Shown piece by piece: positions 288 through 56,266 of a DNA stretch of 56,266 nt. The DNA comes from Desulfamplus magnetovallimortis. GTDB lineage: Bacteria > Desulfobacterota > Desulfobacteria > Desulfobacterales > Desulfobacteraceae. The stretch lies in the NCBI RefSeq assembly GCF_900170035.1, contig NZ_LT828540.1, positions 678,856 through 735,121 of the forward strand, given 5' to 3'. Positions within the stretch are counted from its first letter, which is position 1, and every line of letters starts with the position of its first letter. Made by a program: the position numbers and the translations under genes. The notes beneath the pieces are model-generated. The model saw only the letters and a program-made list of their open reading frames with translations. It did not search any database and had not been told where the DNA came from.

Positions 288-451
288 CTCAAAGTCGACA
301 CCTATGATCTTGTAAGCCTTGTCAACACTGTCTGAATCAGGATTCCCAAGATTAACAAGATAAGGCAGGTTATCTATCCTGAGCATCCTATCCATCCTGG
401 TTCAGACAACTGCAATAACTTCTGAAAAAGCAATAAGATGTCGATTTTGAG
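288..451 (+). mobile_element. Family A MITE, copy A1 (164 bp)
   Basis: The element starts CTCAAAGTCGACA and ends TGTCGATTTTGAG, so the 13-bp ends are inverted repeats with one mismatch. Inside is a second imperfect palindrome built on CTGAATCAGGAT and its complement. It is flanked by TATATA (282-287) and TTTATA (452-457), a 5/6 match to the 6-bp duplications seen around the other copies. It is about 10 bp shorter than A2 and A3 because one of two adjacent TATCCTGG-like units is missing. No ORF inside, so it is non-autonomous. Confidence 0.75.
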
Positions 452-3920: not shown

Positions 3921-4002
3921 AACCAACATGGCGGTTCACAGCCACAATCGAAGAGTAGAAAGTCTTTATAAAAACAGCCATTTGCGGGGACTTTCATATA
4001 AA
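3921..4002 (+). repeat. Family B hairpin repeat, copy B1
   Basis: About 80 bp with two small palindromes: a CATGGCGG/GCCAC-type hairpin at the left and GAAAGTC...GACTTTC at the right, ending in ACTTTCATATAAA. The same unit is at 11621-11783 (two copies), 17801-17884 (reverse), 21989-22074, 41138-41210 and 56071-56266. Confidence 0.75.
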
Positions 4003-4275
4003 CTTGCCCATTCACCTCGCCCCCAGCCACATTTTACAGACTTGGGAGGGGGAGTTTGGGTAAGTTACTCAAAATCGACACCTACAACATCTTGAGCCTT
4101 GTCAATACTGTCTGAATCAGGATTCCCAAGATTAACAGGATAAGGCAGGATTATCTATCCTGAGCATCCTATCCATCCTGGTTATCCTGGTTCAGACAAC
4201 TGCAATAACTTATGCAAAAGCAATAAGATGTCGATTTTGAGAAGTTAATTAAACCCAATTACTTAGTTTCAAAAA
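4003..4275 (+). repeat. Repeat F copy 1, interrupted by MITE A2
   Basis: The stretch from GCCCATTCACCTCGCCCCCAG to TAATTAAACCCAATTAC matches 11787-11870, where it is uninterrupted. Here it is split after GGGTAAGTTA by element A2 (4068-4241). Family B units precede both copies, so B plus F travel together. Confidence 0.7.
4068..4241 (+). mobile_element. Family A MITE, copy A2 (174 bp)
   Basis: Perfect 13-bp terminal inverted repeats: CTCAAAATCGACA at the left, TGTCGATTTTGAG at the right. It is flanked by a perfect 6-bp duplication AAGTTA (4062-4067 and 4242-4247). The paralogous F copy near 11842 reads GGTAAGATAATTAAACCC with no element, which is an empty site and fixes the element boundaries. 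Confidence 0.9.
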
Positions 4276-4304
4276 CTACCCAACAAAAGAATCAGGAGTA
4301 AATC

Positions 4305-6353
4305 ATGCGTGGCTCCCATAGAAAAACAGGCTATATGGGTAAAATAATGGTGGTGGATCTATCCAATGGAACCATAGAAACAGAAACTATACCCCACACA
4401 GTCTATGAATCATTTTTATCAGGCATGGGATTGGCAGCCCATGTGCTTTATCACAGAATTCCCGAGGGTGTTGACCCATTGGGCCCTGACAATATGCTCG
4501 GGTTTGTCTCAGGTCTTTTAACTGGTACAGGCTCCCTTTTTACCGGCCGATGGATGATAGCGTCCAAATCGCCCCTGACAGGTACCTGGGGTGAAGCCAA
4601 CTGCGGTGGCAATTTTTCTCCAGCCATCAAAAGATGTGGTGTTGATGGTATCTTTTTCAAGGGAACAAGCCCCAAACCTGTATATCTTTATGTGGATGAC
4701 AATCGTGCAGAGCTTCGGGATGCCACATTGATATGGGGAAAAGATACTGTTGAAACTGAGGAATATTTTATCGAAAAGCATTTTCTAAATGAAGATGGAT
4801 TTATAAGAAGTGATTCTTCTCTCCAAGATAACTCTTTAAATGAAAAAGAGCTAAAAAAATATCGCCGTAAAAAGGTGGCTGTTGCATGCATAGGGCCATC
4901 TGGTGAAAAGCTCTCCCTTATATCCGGAGTTTCAACAGATAAAGGACGAATGGCGGCAAGATCCGGCCTTGGTGCTGTAATGGGTTCCAAACGCCTTAAA
5001 GCTGTGGTTCTGTCAGGAACAAGGAGAATCCATCCCCACAATCGAGAAGAGATAAAACGTCTCAGCCGCATCTGTAACCGATGGGTTCAGTTCCAGCCAC
5101 CTCTTATGCCAGGATTTCTCACAGCACCTGTGGGAGCCTTGATGAGGCTTATGCCCTGGGTAATGACCCAGGATGGTCTTCTTTATAAAATTTTCCTCAG
5201 AAAATGGGGCACCGTCTCCATGAACCAAATATCAGTTGAGATGGGTGACTCACCAATAAAAAACTGGAAAGGCACAAGCTCAGACTGGGGTTTTTTCAAA
5301 AGCCTTTCATCCAACCCTGACACATTTACCGAAAAAGAGACCCAAAAATACCATTGCTATTCATGCCCTCTGGGATGCGGTGGAATATGTAAAACCACAG
5401 GCAAGTACCAGAAGACCCACAAACCTGAATACGAAACTGTACTCTCTTTGGGCGGTTTTGTGATGAACAAAGATATGGATATCATATTTCAGCTCAATGA
5501 GATGTTGAACCGTGCCGGTATGGATACCATATCCGCAGGTCATGTGGTGGCATTTGCAATGGAATGCTATGAAAATGGGCTGATAACTAAGGAAGATACA
5601 GATGGAGTTCCATTAAAATGGGGAGAGCCTGATGCCATAACCTGGCTTATAGAAAAGATGATATCAAGGGAAGGTATCGGAGATATCCTTGCAGATGGTG
5701 TAAAACGAGCTTCCATGCATATTGGTGAAAAGTCCACAACCTTTGCTGCCCACGCAGGAGGACAGGAGCTTGCAATGCATGACGGCAGAAATGATCCAGG
5801 ATATGCCTTGCACTACAGTGTAGAGGCAGCTCCGGGACGACACACATACGGCTCTGGTATCTATTATGAGATGTACCAATTATGGAAACGTGTAAAGGGC
5901 ATTCCAAAAATAGCCCCATTTTACTCAAAAAAGAGCAAATATGTTCCAGACAAGAAACATGCAAGGATAGGAAAAGCCAACAGTGAATTCATGAACATAA
6001 TGAACGGGTCGGGAGTCTGCATGTTCGGAGGATTCATGGGAGCCAACAGAATCAGAATTTTTGACTGGCTCAACGCTGCCACAGGATGGAATCATACCCC
6101 TGAAAAATATATGGAGATCGGAAGTCAAATCCAGACATTAAAACAGGCTTTTAATATAAAACAGGGCGTTGAACCATCAACTCTTGCGTTAAAAGAGCGT
6201 GTAATCGGCCATCCTCCACAGGAAAAAGGCGCCAATAAAGGTCGAAGCGTACCCCTTGAAACCATGATGGAAGATTACTGGGAGCTTTACGGCTGGGATA
6301 AAAAAACAGGCAAGCCTTCACCGGAGCAGATTGAAGCAGTAAGCCGCATTTGA
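4305..6353 (+). CDS. Aldehyde:ferredoxin oxidoreductase (tungsten AOR family)
   Basis: 682 residues. AOR enzymes oxidise aldehydes to acids (or the reverse) using a tungsten- or molybdenum-bispyranopterin and one [4Fe-4S] cluster, with ferredoxin as partner. The N-terminus has the family GYMGKIMVVDLSNG start, followed by the GEANCGGNFSPAIK pterin-binding region (residues about 96-110). Cluster ligands are visible at Cys351, Cys354 and Cys358 (CYSCPLGC), with a fourth candidate at Cys572 in GSGVCMFGG. CAGGAG precedes the ATG. A four-cluster ferredoxin and a TetR regulator follow on the same strand, consistent with a dedicated electron acceptor and local control. The length is slightly above the 600-residue norm because of an extra loop near residues 165-185. 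Confidence 0.92.
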   Translation: MRGSHRKTGYMGKIMVVDLSNGTIETETIPHTVYESFLSGMGLAAHVLYHRIPEGVDPLGPDNMLGFVSGLLTGTGSLFTGRWMIASKSPLTGTWGEANCGGNFSPAIKRCGVDGIFFKGTSPKPVYLYVDDNRAELRDATLIWGKDTVETEEYFIEKHFLNEDGFIRSDSSLQDNSLNEKELKKYRRKKVAVACIGPSGEKLSLISGVSTDKGRMAARSGLGAVMGSKRLKAVVLSGTRRIHPHNREEIKRLSRICNRWVQFQPPLMPGFLTAPVGALMRLMPWVMTQDGLLYKIFLRKWGTVSMNQISVEMGDSPIKNWKGTSSDWGFFKSLSSNPDTFTEKETQKYHCYSCPLGCGGICKTTGKYQKTHKPEYETVLSLGGFVMNKDMDIIFQLNEMLNRAGMDTISAGHVVAFAMECYENGLITKEDTDGVPLKWGEPDAITWLIEKMISREGIGDILADGVKRASMHIGEKSTTFAAHAGGQELAMHDGRNDPGYALHYSVEAAPGRHTYGSGIYYEMYQLWKRVKGIPKIAPFYSKKSKYVPDKKHARIGKANSEFMNIMNGSGVCMFGGFMGANRIRIFDWLNAATGWNHTPEKYMEIGSQIQTLKQAFNIKQGVEPSTLALKERVIGHPPQEKGANKGRSVPLETMMEDYWELYGWDKKTGKPSPEQIEAVSRI

Positions 6354-6404
6354 TTTTTTTAATTTTATGGATTGTACCTTTTGCAAACACATCGCTTCAT
6401 CCCC

Positions 6405-6491
6405 CTTTATCCCTCGCCCCTGGCTGGAAAGATAAATCACGGGCAAGGTGCCTTGGCAATGAACCTTTATTCCTCGCCCCTGGCTGGAAAG
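6405..6491. repeat. 27-bp direct repeat (two copies)
   Basis: CTTTAT(C/T)CCTCGCCCCTGGCTGGAAAG-type sequence occurs at 6405-6431 and 6465-6491, one difference apart, in the 194-bp gap between AOR and the ferredoxin. Between the copies is an inverted pair around GGCAAGGTGCCTTGGC. No function recognised. It could hold an mRNA processing or stability structure within the operon. Confidence 0.55.
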
Positions 6492-6547
6492 GGGGAAAAT
6501 AATGCAAAAAGATCACAGTCAACTTTAAAGGAGCCTTGATTGGAATA

Positions 6548-6973
6548 ATGTCTTTTTTTATAACAAAAGAGTGTACGGGCTGCATGGCATGCCTGTTAAT
6601 CTGTCCTTCCCAGGCCATAAAAGGGGAAAAAAAAGAACCGCACACCATACAGGATGAGCTATGTATTGATTGTGGCGCATGTGGAAGGGTATGTGCCTTT
6701 CAGGCTGTGCTGGATAATTTCGGCGATATCGCATCCCGTATCCCAAAAAAGGATTGGGATCGTCCGGTATTTAATCTTGATACCTGCATTTCATGCAACA
6801 TATGCACAGATACCTGCCCAACAAATGCACTTGAATCAAAACTTCAAAAACCCAAAAATCTCCACACATACCCCTGGCTTGCAAGGGAGAAAGATTGCAT
6901 TGCCTGTGGCTTCTGCGCCCTGGAGTGCCCGGTTGATGCCATTGAGATGAAAAAAGAAAATGAAGGAATATAA
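6548..6973 (+). CDS. Ferredoxin-type protein with four [4Fe-4S] motifs
   Basis: About 141 residues with four CxxCxxCxxxC motifs: CTGCMACLLICP, CIDCGACGRVCA, CISCNICTDTCP and CIACGFCALECP, enough for four [4Fe-4S] clusters. No signal peptide, so cytoplasmic. Position directly after AOR makes it the likely electron partner. Start choice is open: AAGGAG at 6528-6533 is only 2 nt before an in-frame TTG (6536) and 14 nt before the ATG used here. It ends 8 nt before the TetR gene, so the two are probably co-transcribed. Confidence 0.88.
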   Translation: MSFFITKECTGCMACLLICPSQAIKGEKKEPHTIQDELCIDCGACGRVCAFQAVLDNFGDIASRIPKKDWDRPVFNLDTCISCNICTDTCPTNALESKLQKPKNLHTYPWLAREKDCIACGFCALECPVDAIEMKKENEGI

Positions 6974-6981
6974 AAAAACAG

Positions 6982-7551
6982 ATGGCAAAAACCACAAGAG
7001 GAACCGGAGAAGATAACAGACAGAAAATCCTGGACGCTGCCATGTCACTCATTGCTGAAAATGGTGTGGATAAAACAAGCCTTGCAATGATTGCAAAAAA
7101 ATCAGGTGTCAGTAAAGGAACGCTATACTATTATTATGCCAGCAAAAACGATCTTGTTTTTGATATTGCTGATTTTAATGTTGATAAAATAAGCTCTGCA
7201 ATACTGTCCATCGGCAACATGGAAAACGGGACAGCATCATGGGAGCAACTGGTAAAGGCTTTTTTTGACTATCTTTTATCAGCAGAAGGAAGAAATCGCC
7301 TCCATCTATATCTTGTAAGAGAGGCAATCTCAGGAAATGAACTCCTTCAGAAAAGATTCCGTAAAACATATGCACAATGGTTTTCCATGGTGGAAGATAC
7401 CTATATAAAGCATAATGGAAATGATAAAGATGCACGAACCAAAGCTAAATTTTTTGTTGCAGTCCTGGAAGGATTTATATTGCAGAAGCTTTTAGATGTT
7501 GAAAAAATTGACATAGAAGATATTTTGAAAATGATAAATAAATTATCCTGA
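6982..7551 (+). CDS. TetR/AcrR-family transcriptional regulator
   Basis: 189 residues. The N-terminal helix-turn-helix is clear: ILDAAMSLIAENG, then TSLAMIAKKSGVSKGTLYYYYASKNDLV (residues about 15-60), with the typical YYYY recognition helix. The C-terminal ligand domain has no recognisable subclass. It is 8 nt downstream of the ferredoxin gene, so it is probably the local repressor of the AOR-ferredoxin module. That target is inferred from position. Confidence 0.9.
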   Translation: MAKTTRGTGEDNRQKILDAAMSLIAENGVDKTSLAMIAKKSGVSKGTLYYYYASKNDLVFDIADFNVDKISSAILSIGNMENGTASWEQLVKAFFDYLLSAEGRNRLHLYLVREAISGNELLQKRFRKTYAQWFSMVEDTYIKHNGNDKDARTKAKFFVAVLEGFILQKLLDVEKIDIEDILKMINKLS

Positions 7552-7565
7552 TTCTGATTTATTTT

Positions 7566-7590
7566 GGGGACAGATTTTAAATCTGTCCCC
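7566..7590. repeat. Perfect 12-bp palindrome after the TetR gene
   Basis: GGGGACAGATTT and AAATCTGTCCCC are separated by one base. The stem is strong but no T-run follows on the plus strand, so it is not a textbook terminator. It may still slow polymerase or block exonucleases at the end of the AOR transcript, or be a dispersed REP-like unit. Confidence 0.55.
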
Positions 7591-7610
7591 ATTGCTTGTC
7601 CCTATTGCTT

Positions 7611-7656
7611 GACAACCGCAATAACTCTGAAAAAGTAATAAAATGTCGATTTTGAG
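7611..7656 (+). repeat. Truncated family A element (right end only)
   Basis: GACAACCGCAATAAC through TGTCGATTTTGAG matches the last 46 bp of the complete A copies. The left two thirds are missing. Confidence 0.7.
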
Positions 7657-7693
7657 TATATAAATGACACCAAGCATATGAATTTTAAGTTTT

Positions 7694-10102
7694 TCAAGGC
7701 TCATCCAATATATCCCTGATTTTAACGGCCAGCTCCTGCTTTGAAAATGGCTTGTTTATAAAGTGAACACCTTCATCCAGAATTCCGCGATGGGCAATCA
7801 CGTTTGCAGTATATCCGGACATGAACAAACATTTAAGTTCTGGATATAGTTTTATGAGCGCCCCAGCCAGCTCCTTACCATTCATTTCTGGCATGACAAC
7901 ATCGGTCAAAAGTAAATCAATTTTATGTAAACTGCCATCCTGAACAATCCTGATTGCCTCACCCGGCGTTGAGGCCCCCAATACATTATAACCCGATCGC
8001 TCAAGCATCATTTTGGTCATTTTCAATATTGCTGTTTCATCCTCAACCAGTAAAATTGTGCCATGGCGTTTAACTGCTTCAGTAACAGAACTCTCTTTTT
8101 TTGATCTCTCAACTGCTTCAACAACATGGTGGGGAAGGTATATTTTAAAGGTAGTCCCCTCTCCAAGCTCACTGTACACATTGATAAAACCGTTATTTTG
8201 TTTCACAATACCATAAACTGTTGCCAATCCAAGGCCACTGCCATGCCCGACCTCTTTTGTGGTATAAAAAGGCTCGAAAAGATTTTCAAGAATCTTCTTA
8301 CCCATGCCACACCCATTATCGCTGAAACATACCCTGACATACTCTCCTGGTTTAAAACTAACGTTTTCACGGCAATATTCATAATCAATACGAATATTTT
8401 CCGTCTCTATTGTGACACAGCCCACGCCTTTGATAGCGTCCCGGGCATTTACACAAAGGTTCACAAATATCTGATCAATCTGTGACGGATCTATTTTTAT
8501 GGGCCACAGTCTTTCCGAAGGTGCCCATACAAGTTCAATATCTTCTCCAATAAGGCGATTGAGCATGTTGAGCATACCTTCAAGGGTGCTGTTCAGGTTT
8601 ATTATTTCAGGGGCAATGGTCTGTTGACGGGCAAAAGCAAGCAACTGCCTGACAAAGTCGGTTGATCGTTTTGCCGCATATTGAATCTCCTTAAGATTAT
8701 CAAAAAAAGGACTATCCGAACCTGCATCATCCAGTATGAGTTCGGTATTGCCAAGTATGACACTTAGCATGTTATTAAAATCATGTGCCACACCTCCGGC
8801 AAGCCTGCCAATGGATTCCATTTTTTGAGCCTGCTGCAGTTGTATTTTAAGCTTTAAAAGCGCCTCTTCGGATCGCTTCCGCTTTGTTATATCCTGAATC
8901 ACACCTGATATTTTTAACGGATTCCCATCTCCATCTTTTTCCAATTCAGCAATGGAAATGATAGTTTTCCTTTCATTTGTGTTTTTTGTTATAATATCAA
9001 ATTCCAAATTATACTCTTTACCGCTCTCAACCAAGTCTATTAATGCTTTGTGAACCCTCTCCCTCTCTGGAATGCAGTTTTCCACCTCATCAGTCGTAAA
9101 CGTATCAGCATCAGGTTGAAAACCATATATATTTTTTGCCTCCTCGGATCCCCAGAACTCCATTGTCTGGACGTTGTATTCCCAGTTGCCGACCTTACCG
9201 ATTCGTTGAGCCTTCTGATATCGCTCCTGGTTTTTTCGCAGTAACGCCCTTATTTTGCGATCTTCAGTAATATCATGCATAGTCACAAAAACCTGATGTA
9301 ACTGCTTATCTTCACCCATGAACTGAGGAATTGCATTAATACTCAACCAGACATACCCCTCTTTCAGGGGATTATAAACGCCGACAATCTTGTTCAGTAC
9401 AGGTTGCCCTGTCCGCAATGCCACCATTGACGGGTGGAATTCTCCCTGCAACTCACTGCCATTTTCATTAATGACCTTCCACCTGAAGTCAACAGATGTT
9501 CTTCCCAAAAATTGGTCACGGGTAAGGCCAAACATTTTCAAAGCTGTTGAATTGACATCTATCAGAGTACCATCGCAACTTTGATAAAAAGCCCCCTGTG
9601 CCATATTTTCGAAAAGGAGACGATACTTCAATTCACTTTGCCGCAGTTCATCACCTGCCCTCTTCTGTTGTGTAATATCTCTCCATACACCATGTAATAA
9701 GGGTTCTCCTTTGATTTTGATCTCAGACAACAGCACATCAAGCAATACATCTGAACCATCACATCTTTTACATAACCATTCAAACCGATGGCTCCCTTTT
9801 TCAAATGCCAGGGCAATCATTGATTCTGCTTTCTCCCTTGATGGATGACCATCCGGCTGGTATGGAGGAGAAATATCCCTGGGATGAAGTTTCAGTAACT
9901 GACTTTTTTTCTCAAATCCCAACAAACGAATTGATGACCAATTGCAGTCTATAAAACTATCATTTTTATATATAACATGTGCATCCGCAGAACTGTCAAA
10001 AAGCAATCTGAAACGCTCCTCGCTCTCCTTTAGTGCATTTTCAGCCATCTCCAGCTCCGTGACTTTTTGCTCTAACTTCTCATATGTTAATTTTTCAGGC
10101 AT
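7694..10102 (-). CDS. Hybrid sensor histidine kinase with three PAS domains and a receiver
   Basis: 802 residues from the ATG at 10102, chosen because GGAG lies 6 nt before it. A TTG 4 codons upstream lies within that ribosome site. Order: three PAS/PAC units (about 15-145, 160-285, 300-415), HisKA with phospho-acceptor His440 in GGVAHDFNN, HATPase with the N box NLCVNARDAI and the G boxes SDNGCGMG and GHGSGLGL, then a receiver (about 680-800) with Asp734 in LLTDVVMPE and Lys in NKPF. No membrane segment, so a cytoplasmic sensor. No dedicated response regulator is adjacent, so output may go through the fused receiver to a distant partner. Confidence 0.92.
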   Translation of the reverse strand: MPEKLTYEKLEQKVTELEMAENALKESEERFRLLFDSSADAHVIYKNDSFIDCNWSSIRLLGFEKKSQLLKLHPRDISPPYQPDGHPSREKAESMIALAFEKGSHRFEWLCKRCDGSDVLLDVLLSEIKIKGEPLLHGVWRDITQQKRAGDELRQSELKYRLLFENMAQGAFYQSCDGTLIDVNSTALKMFGLTRDQFLGRTSVDFRWKVINENGSELQGEFHPSMVALRTGQPVLNKIVGVYNPLKEGYVWLSINAIPQFMGEDKQLHQVFVTMHDITEDRKIRALLRKNQERYQKAQRIGKVGNWEYNVQTMEFWGSEEAKNIYGFQPDADTFTTDEVENCIPERERVHKALIDLVESGKEYNLEFDIITKNTNERKTIISIAELEKDGDGNPLKISGVIQDITKRKRSEEALLKLKIQLQQAQKMESIGRLAGGVAHDFNNMLSVILGNTELILDDAGSDSPFFDNLKEIQYAAKRSTDFVRQLLAFARQQTIAPEIINLNSTLEGMLNMLNRLIGEDIELVWAPSERLWPIKIDPSQIDQIFVNLCVNARDAIKGVGCVTIETENIRIDYEYCRENVSFKPGEYVRVCFSDNGCGMGKKILENLFEPFYTTKEVGHGSGLGLATVYGIVKQNNGFINVYSELGEGTTFKIYLPHHVVEAVERSKKESSVTEAVKRHGTILLVEDETAILKMTKMMLERSGYNVLGASTPGEAIRIVQDGSLHKIDLLLTDVVMPEMNGKELAGALIKLYPELKCLFMSGYTANVIAHRGILDEGVHFINKPFSKQELAVKIRDILDEP

Positions 10103-11620: not shown

Positions 11621-11783
11621 TAAACGTACATGGCTGATCACCGCCACAATCAAAGAGATGAAAGTCGTTTTAAAAACAGGCTGTTACCGAGACTTTCATA
11701 TAACACCCCATGTTTGCTGACGCATCACAACAAAACATGAAAGTCGTTTTAAAGACAGCTATTTATTGAGACTTTCATATAAA
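11621..11783 (+). repeat. Family B hairpin repeats, copies B2 and B3 in tandem
   Basis: Two consecutive units (11621-11703 and 11704-11783), each ending GACTTTCATATAA. B2 has the GGCTG-ATCA-CCGCC hairpin with one mismatch. In B3 the left hairpin is degraded while the GAAAGTC...GACTTTC stem is kept. Confidence 0.7.
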
Positions 11784-11786
11784 ACA

Positions 11787-11870
11787 TGCCCATTCATCTC
11801 ACCCCCAGCCAACTCTTACAGGCTTGCCATGGGGAGCTTGGGTAAGATAATTAAACCCAATTACCAAGGT
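11787..11870 (+). repeat. Repeat F copy 2 (empty site for MITE A2)
   Basis: Matches 4003-4067 plus 4248-4275 without the intervening element A. The junction reads GGTAAGATAATTAAACCC. It provides the pre-insertion state for A2. Confidence 0.7.
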
Positions 11871-11902
11871 TAAAAAACAAGTGATGACAATACAATAGTT
11901 AT

Positions 11903-14504: not shown

Positions 14505-14524
14505 AAATATAAAAATAATAGTTA

Positions 14525-14698
14525 CTCAAAGTCGACACCTATGATCTTGTAAGCCTTGTCAACACTGTCTGAATCAGGATTCCCAAGATTAACAAGATAA
14601 GGCAGGATTATCTATCCTGAGCATCCTATCCATCCTGGTTATCCTGGTTCAGACAACTGCAATAACTTCTGAAAAAGCAATAAGATGTCGATTTTGAG
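14525..14698 (+). mobile_element. Family A MITE, copy A3 (174 bp)
   Basis: Left end CTCAAAGTCGACA, right end TGTCGATTTTGAG, one mismatch. Perfect 6-bp duplication TAGTTA at 14519-14524 and 14699-14704. It is inserted between the two family I hairpins and is nearly identical to A1 apart from A1's 10-bp deletion. Confidence 0.9.
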
Positions 14699-14710
14699 TA
14701 GTTATTTCTA

Positions 14711-17800: not shown

Positions 17801-17884
17801 TTTATATGAAAGTCCCCGCAAATGGCTGTTTTCATAAAGACTTTCATCTCTTCGATTGTGGCGGGAATCCGCCATGTACGTTAT
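17801..17884 (-). repeat. Family B hairpin repeat, copy B4
   Basis: Reverse-strand copy: TATATGAAAGTCC at the left and GGCGGGAATCCGCCATGTACGTTATT at the right in plus-strand reading. Both small stems are intact. It lies just upstream of purB. Confidence 0.7.
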
Positions 17885-27041: not shown

Positions 27042-27062
27042 TATATTAGAAAGTCTCAATAA
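27042..27062 (-). repeat. Family B fragment before lptE
   Basis: On the minus strand TGTTATTGAGACTTTCTAAT matches the right end of family B units such as B5. It supplies the first codons of the longer lptE frame, which argues against that start. Confidence 0.45.
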
Positions 27063-27065
27063 CAT

Positions 27066-27235
27066 CTCAAAATCGACAACTACAACCTCTTGAGCCTTGT
27101 CAATACTGTCTGAATCAGGATTCCCAAGATTAACAGGATAAGGCAGGATTATCTATCATCATCTTTTTTATCCTGTTTATCTTGATTCAGACAAATTCAG
27201 TAACTGGAAAAAAGCAATAAGATGTCGATTTTGAG
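27066..27235 (+). mobile_element. Family A MITE, copy A4 (170 bp)
   Basis: Perfect 13-bp inverted ends CTCAAAATCGACA and TGTCGATTTTGAG, with a perfect 6-bp duplication TAACAT at 27060-27065 and 27236-27241. The element sits between leuS and lptE, which are commonly one operon, and its edge is one base from the upstream lptE ATG. Confidence 0.92.
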
Positions 27236-27252
27236 TAACATACTAATATATT

Positions 27253-45744: not shown

Positions 45745-47130
45745 CTATATTTCATCAACGAACCAGGATACCACGCTATCAAGAAATATCCACCCTTCAA
45801 CGTTAAGATGAAAAAATTCTTGTGCAATCCCCTCCCCTTTTGTTTCATGATTAATCTCATATGTGCTTTTTCCACTGCATAGCTCACCCCAGGATCTGGA
45901 TTTTACCCTTTCCATTACCGTACCAAAAAGTTTATCAAAATCGCAATTAAACTTATGCTCAAAATTTTTGATATTTATCCCTTCAGCAGTTCTTAGTCCA
46001 AGCATTACAGTTTCTATCATTTTCTGTTCTATTGTGAGTTTTTCCTCCATTTTTAAAGGCAACTTTCCTCTATTTAATCGTGCAATATAGGTTTTAACGC
46101 TGGAATCATTGGAAAAACGATTAATTCCGTCATATGAATGGGCAGATGGGCCAAATCCCAGATAAGGTACCATATTCCAGTATTTCCTGTTATGCTTGGA
46201 TTGACAGCAAAGTTCTTTCTCTTTTTTCTTCATACATCGGGCAAAATTTGATATTTCATAATGGTAAAAATCGTGGGAAGCAAGATAGCCTGATGTCTGC
46301 TTAAAAAGTAATGAGACCTTTTCATCATCAAGTGGTTTGAATTTATTTCCGGCAACTTCATCATACATTGGAGTTCCAGGCTCATAGGTGAGCATATAGC
46401 ATGAAAGATGTTCACAGTTCATGCTGATTGCAACATCAAGATCATATTTCCAAGAATTCTGGGTCTCGCCAGGAAGGCCATACATAAGATCAATGCTGAT
46501 ATTATCAAAACCTGCCTTTCTTGCTGATTCGATGGTGTTGATTGCAGTTCCGGCAGAATGGATTCTTTTTAAAAAAGAGAGCTTATGATCCTGAAAGGAC
46601 TGCACCCCTATGCTTAAGCGATTAACGCCTATACTCCTTATATTTTCAAGCTTTCTGGTTATCTCAGCAGTTGTACCGGTATCTGTGCCATTGCCCAGAG
46701 CTTTTGCGTAGTTATTCTTATTACTATGCCCATTAAATCCTTGCTGTTTAATTTGGGCAATATCTGAAATGCACAATGTTCCGGGATTGATCTCCATTGT
46801 TATCTGGGGGTTATCCATAACATTAAAGCATTTTATTATATGTGCTATAATTTTTTCGGTCTGGCCACAAGAAAGCAGAGACGGGGTTCCTCCGCCAATG
46901 TAAATGGTATCAATATTTAGATCTGGCTCAGCCCTGAACTCAAGCTCATGGAGAAGAGCATCCATAAAAATATCTAAATAGCTAAGTTCAGAGACAGAAT
47001 AAAAATCACAATATGGACATTTCCTTGCACAAAATGGGATATGAATATAAATTCCCGCAGGAATTGAATTAGTAATAATGTTTGACATTTTTGTATTATT
47101 AGCACCGTCTGTGTTTCTCAAAATCGACAT
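45745..47130 (-). CDS. hemW: HemW-type radical SAM protein (heme chaperone)
   Basis: 461 residues from 47130, or 447 from the second ATG at 47088, which fits HemW length better. The radical SAM cluster is Cys-x3-Cys-x2-Cys in IHIPFCARKCPYCDF, followed by IYIGGGTPS and INPGT. An Asn/Gly/Thr-rich insert lies at about residues 131-163, before RLSIGVQSF. The C-terminal HemN-like region with GLRTAEGI is present. HemW binds heme and is not a coproporphyrinogen oxidase in characterised cases. The first five codons from 47130 (ATGTCGATTTTGAG) are the end of a family A element. Confidence 0.88.
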   Translation of the reverse strand: MSILRNTDGANNTKMSNIITNSIPAGIYIHIPFCARKCPYCDFYSVSELSYLDIFMDALLHELEFRAEPDLNIDTIYIGGGTPSLLSCGQTEKIIAHIIKCFNVMDNPQITMEINPGTLCISDIAQIKQQGFNGHSNKNNYAKALGNGTDTGTTAEITRKLENIRSIGVNRLSIGVQSFQDHKLSFLKRIHSAGTAINTIESARKAGFDNISIDLMYGLPGETQNSWKYDLDVAISMNCEHLSCYMLTYEPGTPMYDEVAGNKFKPLDDEKVSLLFKQTSGYLASHDFYHYEISNFARCMKKKEKELCCQSKHNRKYWNMVPYLGFGPSAHSYDGINRFSNDSSVKTYIARLNRGKLPLKMEEKLTIEQKMIETVMLGLRTAEGINIKNFEHKFNCDFDKLFGTVMERVKSRSWGELCSGKSTYEINHETKGEGIAQEFFHLNVEGWIFLDSVVSWFVDEI

Positions 47131-56070: not shown

Positions 56071-56266
56071 AACGTACATGGCGGATAGCCGCCACAATCG
56101 AAGAGATGAAAGTCGTTTTAAAAACAGCCACTTACTGAGACTTTCATATAAACCAACATGGCGGTTCACCGCCACAATGGAAGAGTTGAAAGTCTTTATA
56201 AAAACAGCCATTTGCGGGGACTTTCATATAAATGGCCATGGCAGAGCCATCTGCCACAACGAAGCA
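56071..56266 (+). repeat. Tandem array of family B units (B7, B8, partial B9)
   Basis: Period exactly 80 bp (starts 56071, 56151, 56231), running off the window edge. Left hairpins are GGCGG-ATAG-CCGCC, GGCGG-TTCA-CCGCC and GGCAGA-GCCA-TCTGCC in successive units: the arms change together. Each complete unit also has GAAAGTC...GACTTTC. Confidence 0.85.

Follow-up and report, generated by a model that had tools for sequence, protein, structure and literature searches.

In the draft genome of Desulfamplus magnetovallimortis (6.68 Mb in 108 contigs), a short repeat, of which four full copies lie in the 56,266 nucleotides analysed here (bases 678856–735121 of contig 1; "the window"), is a MITE family, i.e., a non-autonomous transposable element. 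This had been proposed earlier from the letters of the window (the sequence-only reading), and inverted ends, target duplications, empty sites and an interior devoid of a transposase gene all agree with it. The ends are probably (at a rough probability of 0.8) used by an IS4-superfamily DDE transposase with a complete YREK motif; this enzyme would act in trans and cut its target with a stagger of 6–7 bp. A candidate for such an enzyme, with IS4-type motifs and a pairing of motif and duplication length which is not listed for known groups, is described below as new, together with an end signature which is common to unrelated interiors.

Copies in the window and empty sites

The features of the window, numbered from its first base, are as follows.

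288..451, forward strand: MITE copy A1, 164 bp; imperfect duplication TATATA/TTTATA (5 of 6 positions)
4062..4067: left target duplication of A2, AAGTTA (from the sequence)
4068..4241, forward strand: MITE copy A2, 174 bp (from sequence, duplication and empty-site comparison)
4109..4123, forward strand: 5' arm of the inner hairpin of A2, TGTCTGAATCAGGAT (from sequence and copy alignment)
4185..4199, forward strand: 3' arm of the inner hairpin of A2, TCCTGGTTCAGACAA (from sequence and copy alignment)
4242..4247: right target duplication of A2, AAGTTA (from the sequence)
7644..7656, reverse strand: truncated MITE copy, right end (end-pattern scan)
11757..11878, forward strand: repeat F, uninterrupted, empty site within the window, reading AAGATA (sequence comparison)
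14525..14698, forward strand: MITE copy A3, 174 bp; duplication TAGTTA at 14519–14524 and 14699–14704
27066..27235, forward strand: MITE copy A4, 170 bp; duplication TAACAT at 27060–27065 and 27236–27241
47117..47129, forward strand: truncated MITE copy, single end (end-pattern scan)

The four full copies, the perfect 6-bp duplications of A2, A3 and A4 and the imperfect one of A1, as well as the existence of truncated copies, were thus found as the sequence-only reading had given them. The right end is exactly TGTCGATTTTGAG in all four copies; on the left, A2 and A4 carry CTCAAAATCGACA, and A1 and A3 carry CTCAAAGTCGACA. The 13-bp inverted repeats claimed for the ends are therefore present, but with one mismatch in A1 and A3. 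In some of the end scans (among them those for window copies and truncated copies) the pattern letters R and Y were taken literally, which consumed the one mismatch allowed. A3 shares 100% identity with 6 further copies among 14 places scored. Matches to DDE_Tnp_1, rve, Transposase_mut, NF033593 and NF033594 were absent from the window, as expected from the statement that the transposase is not encoded there. The gene adjoining A2 (4305–6353), which we take to be aldehyde-ferredoxin-oxidoreductase-like, has relatives of 56–71% identity at 33 loci, nearly all from metagenome assemblies (Desulfobacteraceae, other Desulfobacterales and Deltaproteobacteria); in these 33 loci, neither an exact MITE end nor an end pair was found.

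A2 is inserted in a second repeat, F, between two AAGTTA words, in accordance with the earlier description. The other F copy of the window, which had been put forward as the empty site, is indeed uninterrupted, but contains AAGATA instead of AAGTTA. Better empty sites are provided by F copies in other parts of the genome (L046, L036, L062 and L050/L035, the latter being one place in two records), which possess a single AAGTTA and read through as TAAGTTAATTAAACCC; A2 is defined to the base by these copies. Repeat F itself (window 3976–4067 and 4242–4290; L046, L050, L036, L062) is a diverged repeat which recurs across the sampled genome, and an F-like stretch was seen by eye to flank an insertion sequence (IS) in another genome of the genus (L153 in G001). 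Beside F stands a 27-base sequence, AGCCATTTGCGGGGACTTTCATATAAA, with exact copies at window positions 17801–17827 and 56206–56232 and also in L061, L075 and L034; since it recurs without the rest of F, this repeat is apparently composed of separable modules.

Abundance, target duplications and position relative to genes

Exact ends of the form CTCAAARTCGACA occur 486 times in the genome (251 + 235), while the reversed pattern occurs 0 times. Copy density was estimated from the contiguous block C1:400001–910000 (510,000 bases) only, because the first 20 tiles had mostly been picked for having ends; a profile search of this block yielded 52 places, 23 of them full copies, which scales to an estimate of about 300 full copies genome-wide. 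The element is thus abundant, as had been suspected. Among 67 two-ended copies, counted after removal of one duplicate of A1 (from tile overlap) and of 3 full-length places without recognisable ends, there were 54 distinct sequences, including sets of 7, 6 and 3 identical copies; median identity to the consensus was 95%, and the length ranged from 164 to 253 bp, with 174 bp in 47 copies. The identical sets suggest that movement was recent, so a transposase should have been present not long ago or should be hidden.

Several single copies deserve description. The copy at L034 19537–19771 carries two internal tandem expansions, of GGTTATCCT-like and AATTCAGCA-like units; its interior grew by slippage. 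Lone exact ends without a detected MITE interior were present at L039 13075, L043 9531 and 9582, L074 7584 and L040 6772; two of these stand in tandem, and they could be remnants or recombined ends. The copy at L166 2354–2526 has a 585-aa frame on one side and a Cas1-like frame on the other (names assigned by eye), and farther on in the same contig a frame repeats VSIPSNRGSVSD, by eye resembling translated CRISPR repeats.

Target duplications could be tabulated for 64 of the 67 copies, 3 being excluded due to gaps or edges. Perfect duplications flanked 42 copies (34 of 6 bp, 7 of 7 bp and 1 of 8 bp), a duplication with one mismatch was present in 9, and 13 were without any. When right flanks were redealt against left flanks in 1000 shufflings, the mean was 0.58 perfect duplications and the maximum 4. 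The target resembles TAWWTA: of the 64 copies, 44 have T at position –6, 38 have A at –5, 57 have T at –2 and 43 have A at –1. The duplication length, given as 6 bp in the sequence-only reading, is therefore mainly but not strictly 6 bp, since 7 bp occurs as well; for most copies the flanks are not homologous, the duplicated words varying from copy to copy.

Positions relative to genes were examined in 840 kb of sampled DNA (851,145 bases, less 10,000 and 1,145 of overlap). Of 47 full copies there, not one lay inside a called ORF, compared with about 80% of random points; gene calling followed a simple longest-ORF rule, by which a gene broken by an insertion would escape. When the flanks were joined and one duplication was removed, an ORF spanned the site in 1 of 45 copies (two with less than 300 bases of flank being left out), versus 1369 of 2000 random points; the sole case is the copy at L068 6422–6595, with an ORF of 621 bases. 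In gaps between tandem genes, 15 copies were oriented along the genes and 16 opposite to them, and the types of gaps were near those of random points. Copies are thus rare in genes, and a directional role is not apparent.

Common ends on different interiors

The interior of the type found in the genus is a long hairpin; for A3 the z value was –6.35, with 0 of 200 shuffles as good. The hairpin arms are among the most conserved parts of the MITE and are conserved across the genus. Covariation was limited to 2 of 38 pairs in an alignment of ten sequences from the genus, which falls short of showing selection on the structure as such, and a search of the whole window against Rfam at gathering score returned two tRNAs and nothing else. 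Sequences like the inner hairpin, without MITE ends, were also noticed in two genomes outside the family (G045, G052).

Ten genomes of the genus were scanned for exact CTCAAARTCGACA ends, several of the nine others being incomplete; besides the 486 of D. magnetovallimortis, there were 27 in G001, 23 in G008, 4 each in G006 and G002, 2 in G003 and 0 in the remaining four. With a slightly wider end pattern, most of 291 genomes of the order showed 0–4 matches, and higher numbers were obtained for G133 (19), G221 (13) and G040 (7). Since another genome of the order, G106, had repeated matches to the reversed control pattern (10 + 9), counts alone are no proof of an element, and the places in G133, G221 and G040 were therefore read. 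They contain short elements of 128–242 bp, with ends such as CTCAAAAACGACACCTT. Outside D. magnetovallimortis, 30 end pairs were recorded in eight genomes, 22 with perfect duplications of 6–7 bp, 5 with one mismatch (one of these, in G221, being an alternative left end of the neighbouring entry) and 3 with none. At L235 2235–2476 in G221, two left ends are 43 bp apart and the perfect duplication belongs to the outer one.

The interiors from G000, G001, G002 and G008, all of the genus type, matched each other strongly. Those of G003, G133, G221/G040, a second type from G221 and G171, compared with one representative per type, matched neither each other nor the genus type better than the best of 200 shuffles, except for the pair G221–G040. 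About six unrelated interiors with CTCAAARWCGACAYCTT-like ends and 6–7 bp duplications thus exist in genomes of the order. Since the ends are common to unrelated interiors, it is the ends which define the system; what is needed for movement (the ends) becomes separable from what is not (the interior). When relatives are compared, the conserved end extends to about 17 bp. A search of 395 genomes of the phylum with this 17-mer gave single matches in 4 genomes besides D. magnetovallimortis, which is chance level, and no convincing partner end. A tandem end-like repeat in L256 proved to be a different repeat, and nothing convincing was found in two further stretches of G171.

Transposases, rival explanations and known systems

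The search for a transposase in the genome of D. magnetovallimortis covered DDE_Tnp_1 (6 matches), rve (2, partial), Transposase_mut (0) and two ISNCY models, NF033594 (2 below the cut-off) and NF033593 (0). The flanks of these matches contained no pair of MITE ends and no end match with fewer than 2 mismatches, only scattered ones with 3 and a single one with 2 (L309). Fifty contigs of up to 2,570 bases are read as N, and a collapsed multi-copy IS could therefore hide there. Several other potential parents were dismissed. The long end pairs of 2.7 and 3.4 kb (L032, L031) have ordinary genes between them and represent independent MITEs or remnants. For the ISNCY-type ISs of this order (NF033593, 98 genomes), 30 loci were scanned without a pair of MITE ends being found; one of them (L132) possesses one end match in the right orientation with 2 mismatches, without a left partner, and at nine loci the IS ends, as read by comparison, differed from those of the MITE, e.g., TAGTATCTGCTGATTTTC. 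A DDE_Tnp_1 family of 499 aa in G171 has ends, CCATAGGTGTAAAG, which are unlike those of the MITE. Border repeats of 6–7 bp were seen in 3 of 5 copies of this 499-aa element that were read, and at L325 the element appears to be nested in, or duplicated beside, itself.

A concrete candidate for the mover of the MITE, from one damaged locus with the right end only, is a transposase gene in G003 (L260, contig 66). Its ORF extends from 96 to 1289, and 35 bp past the stop codon an exact MITE end follows (1325–1337), the outer flank of which, TATTTA, fits the TAWWTA target. A spacing of 35 bp between gene and end is usual for IS elements. The 5' part of the gene is cut by another IS, the first 131 bases of the contig being the end of a different DDE_Tnp_1 element which is found in contig 104 (99% over 131 bases). 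The remaining 385 residues match DDE_Tnp_1 with 47 bits (cut-off 23). The residues D85, D171 and E300 are spaced as D(85)D(128)E, inside the IS4 range of D(60–110)D(100–150)E, and Y293-R296-E300-K307 (YQRRWSVEVIFKELK) form a complete Y-2-R-3-E-6-K motif, as in IS4 elements. All nine NCBIfam IS models listed for the protein were below their cut-offs, the best among them being transpos_IS701_3 (75.9 bits; cut-off 170).

No relative of the protein was found at E 0.001 among the loci of D. magnetovallimortis examined; outside that genome there was only a family in G171, as a weak match (7.8e-5 over 71 residues), and searches of plasmids and phages gave 0 relatives, with none confirmed in viral contigs. 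Sequence comparison with the PDB gave 4 weak matches, including Tn5 transposase (3 chains, E 0.56–0.57) over the YREK stretch, and a single-sequence fold prediction reached a pLDDT of 33.

According to the explanation preferred here, the MITE ends, which are near CTCAAARWCGACAYCTT reading inwards, would be bound and cut by an IS4-superfamily DDE transposase with complete YREK, supplied in trans. Cuts with a 6- or 7-bp stagger in AT-rich, TAWWTA-like targets would give rise to the duplications. The interior would be dispensable for movement, so that, in several lineages of the order, these ends could carry unrelated interiors, and in the genus one hairpin interior would have spread most. It appears that transposases of the G003 type move the MITE in trans, and that D. 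magnetovallimortis has lost its own cognate gene or that this gene is not visible. Counting against this explanation are the single, 5'-truncated locus that links transposase and end, the chance that this end is a MITE remnant (see below), the 13 of 64 copies without a duplication, and the failure to find a relative of the G003 protein among the loci of D. magnetovallimortis examined although the identical sets imply recent movement.

A considerably less likely alternative is that the MITE is moved by a transposase of another family and that the end at L260 is the remnant of a chance MITE insertion. L260 is a single truncated locus, the genome of D. magnetovallimortis yielded no relative of its transposase in the loci examined, and the stretch between gene and end resembles 15–22 nt of a hairpin arm of the G001/G008 MITEs (shuffle fractions 0.0035, 0.004 and 0.0125, i.e., 3 of 12 tests, uncorrected), so that the end could derive from such a copy. 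The same stretch, however, has no match to the MITE of G003 itself. The end is, moreover, one of only four exact matches to the wider pattern in this genome, of which two belong to one MITE and one (C12) was rejected as an element, since it sits in an open frame of 312 aa without a partner end; by a rough estimate, the chance of a correctly oriented end falling so near to one of the eight DDE_Tnp_1 matches in G003 is about 1 in 5,000–10,000.

The remaining two alternatives would dispense with transposition as the main process. A structured functional element under selection (terminator, regulatory RNA or REP-like protein site), with mobility being incidental, could account for the strong hairpin, for the conservation of its arms across the genus and for the rarity of copies in genes; it is nevertheless disfavoured and seems improbable, considering target duplications and empty sites, neutral orientation and near-random gap types, covariation in 2 of 38 pairs only, the lack of Rfam matches beyond the two tRNAs in the window, and the rarity or absence of exact ends in the nine other genus genomes searched, several of them incomplete. 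Duplication of larger blocks or gene conversion as the origin of the copies would be compatible with the identical sets and with the 13 copies lacking duplications, but the flanking words differ between copies and yet agree on the two sides of a given copy (42 of 64, compared with a shuffling mean of 0.58), which refutes it for most copies, and the empty sites argue in the same direction; the odds of this explanation are minimal. Movement of the MITE by an IS4-superfamily transposase with complete YREK thus remains the preferred reading. The chances appear about even that the elements represent a distinct, undescribed IS4-superfamily group, characterized by full YREK, TAWWTA duplications of 6–7 bp, portable ends, some six interiors and about 300 copies in one genome, with no related transposase in the loci of that genome examined. 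A MITE of about 300 copies beside few visible transposases would also be a case for studying how passengers outlive or outnumber their drivers.

Among the papers found on MITEs in connection with Desulfobacter, Deltaproteobacteria or the IS4 family and on high-copy bacterial MITEs, none dealt with a like element, judging from titles and beginnings of abstracts. The BrickBuilt MITE of Porphyromonas gingivalis, as described in PMC4596501, is also small and intergenic, with inverted-repeat ends and possible internal repeats; it is present in 19 copies in one strain, whereas the MITE of D. magnetovallimortis is estimated at about 300 copies and has a candidate parent and ends on unrelated interiors.

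For the parent, the duplication length was regarded as an unusual clue, and it falls indeed between the ranges given for IS1634 (5–6 bp) and ISPepr1 (7–8 bp) by De Palmenaer (2008; PMC2266710). In the scheme presented there, full YREK goes along with repeats of 7–13 bp, while the YREK-poor families IS701, ISH3 and IS1634 have repeats of 4, 4–5 and 5–6 bp, respectively. The perfect duplications reported here, which were measured on the MITE and not on its parent, are of 6 (34 of 42), 7 (7 of 42) and 8 bp (1 of 42), and thus do not follow the IS4 range. IS701 provides the best listed NCBIfam match of the G003 protein, at less than half of its cut-off, but its duplications are of 4 bp compared with 6–7 bp on the MITE, and the Y of YREK is mostly missing (PMC2266710). 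IS1634 shares AT-rich duplications of 5–6 bp and a C as the first base of the end; its transposases are long, with an extended N3–C1 spacer, and mostly without complete YREK (PMC2266710), whereas the G003 protein has a complete motif and a spacer of 128 at this place, and scores 39.1 bits with the IS1634 model of NCBIfam (cut-off 100). ISPepr1, for which the same source reports preferred 5'-CT ends, AT-rich targets, 7–8 bp direct repeats and the end signature YT-AA-YTT---A, agrees with the present system in its 5'-CT ends and AT-rich targets and in the full YREK and D(60–110)D(100–150)E arrangement of the G003 protein; it differs in repeat length (7–8 bp versus mainly 6 bp), and CTCAAAAACGACA agrees by eye with the signature at 5 of 8 set positions, so that the signature as a whole is not reproduced. 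None of the ten IS4-related groups, as described in PMC2266710, fits the combination of full YREK and 6–7 bp duplications, the latter taken from the MITE, and the parent is therefore left outside the named subgroups, with ISPepr1 as its nearest neighbour. If the G003-type enzyme is the mover, a transposase with full YREK which leaves 6–7 bp would blur the divide between YREK content and duplication length that is drawn there.
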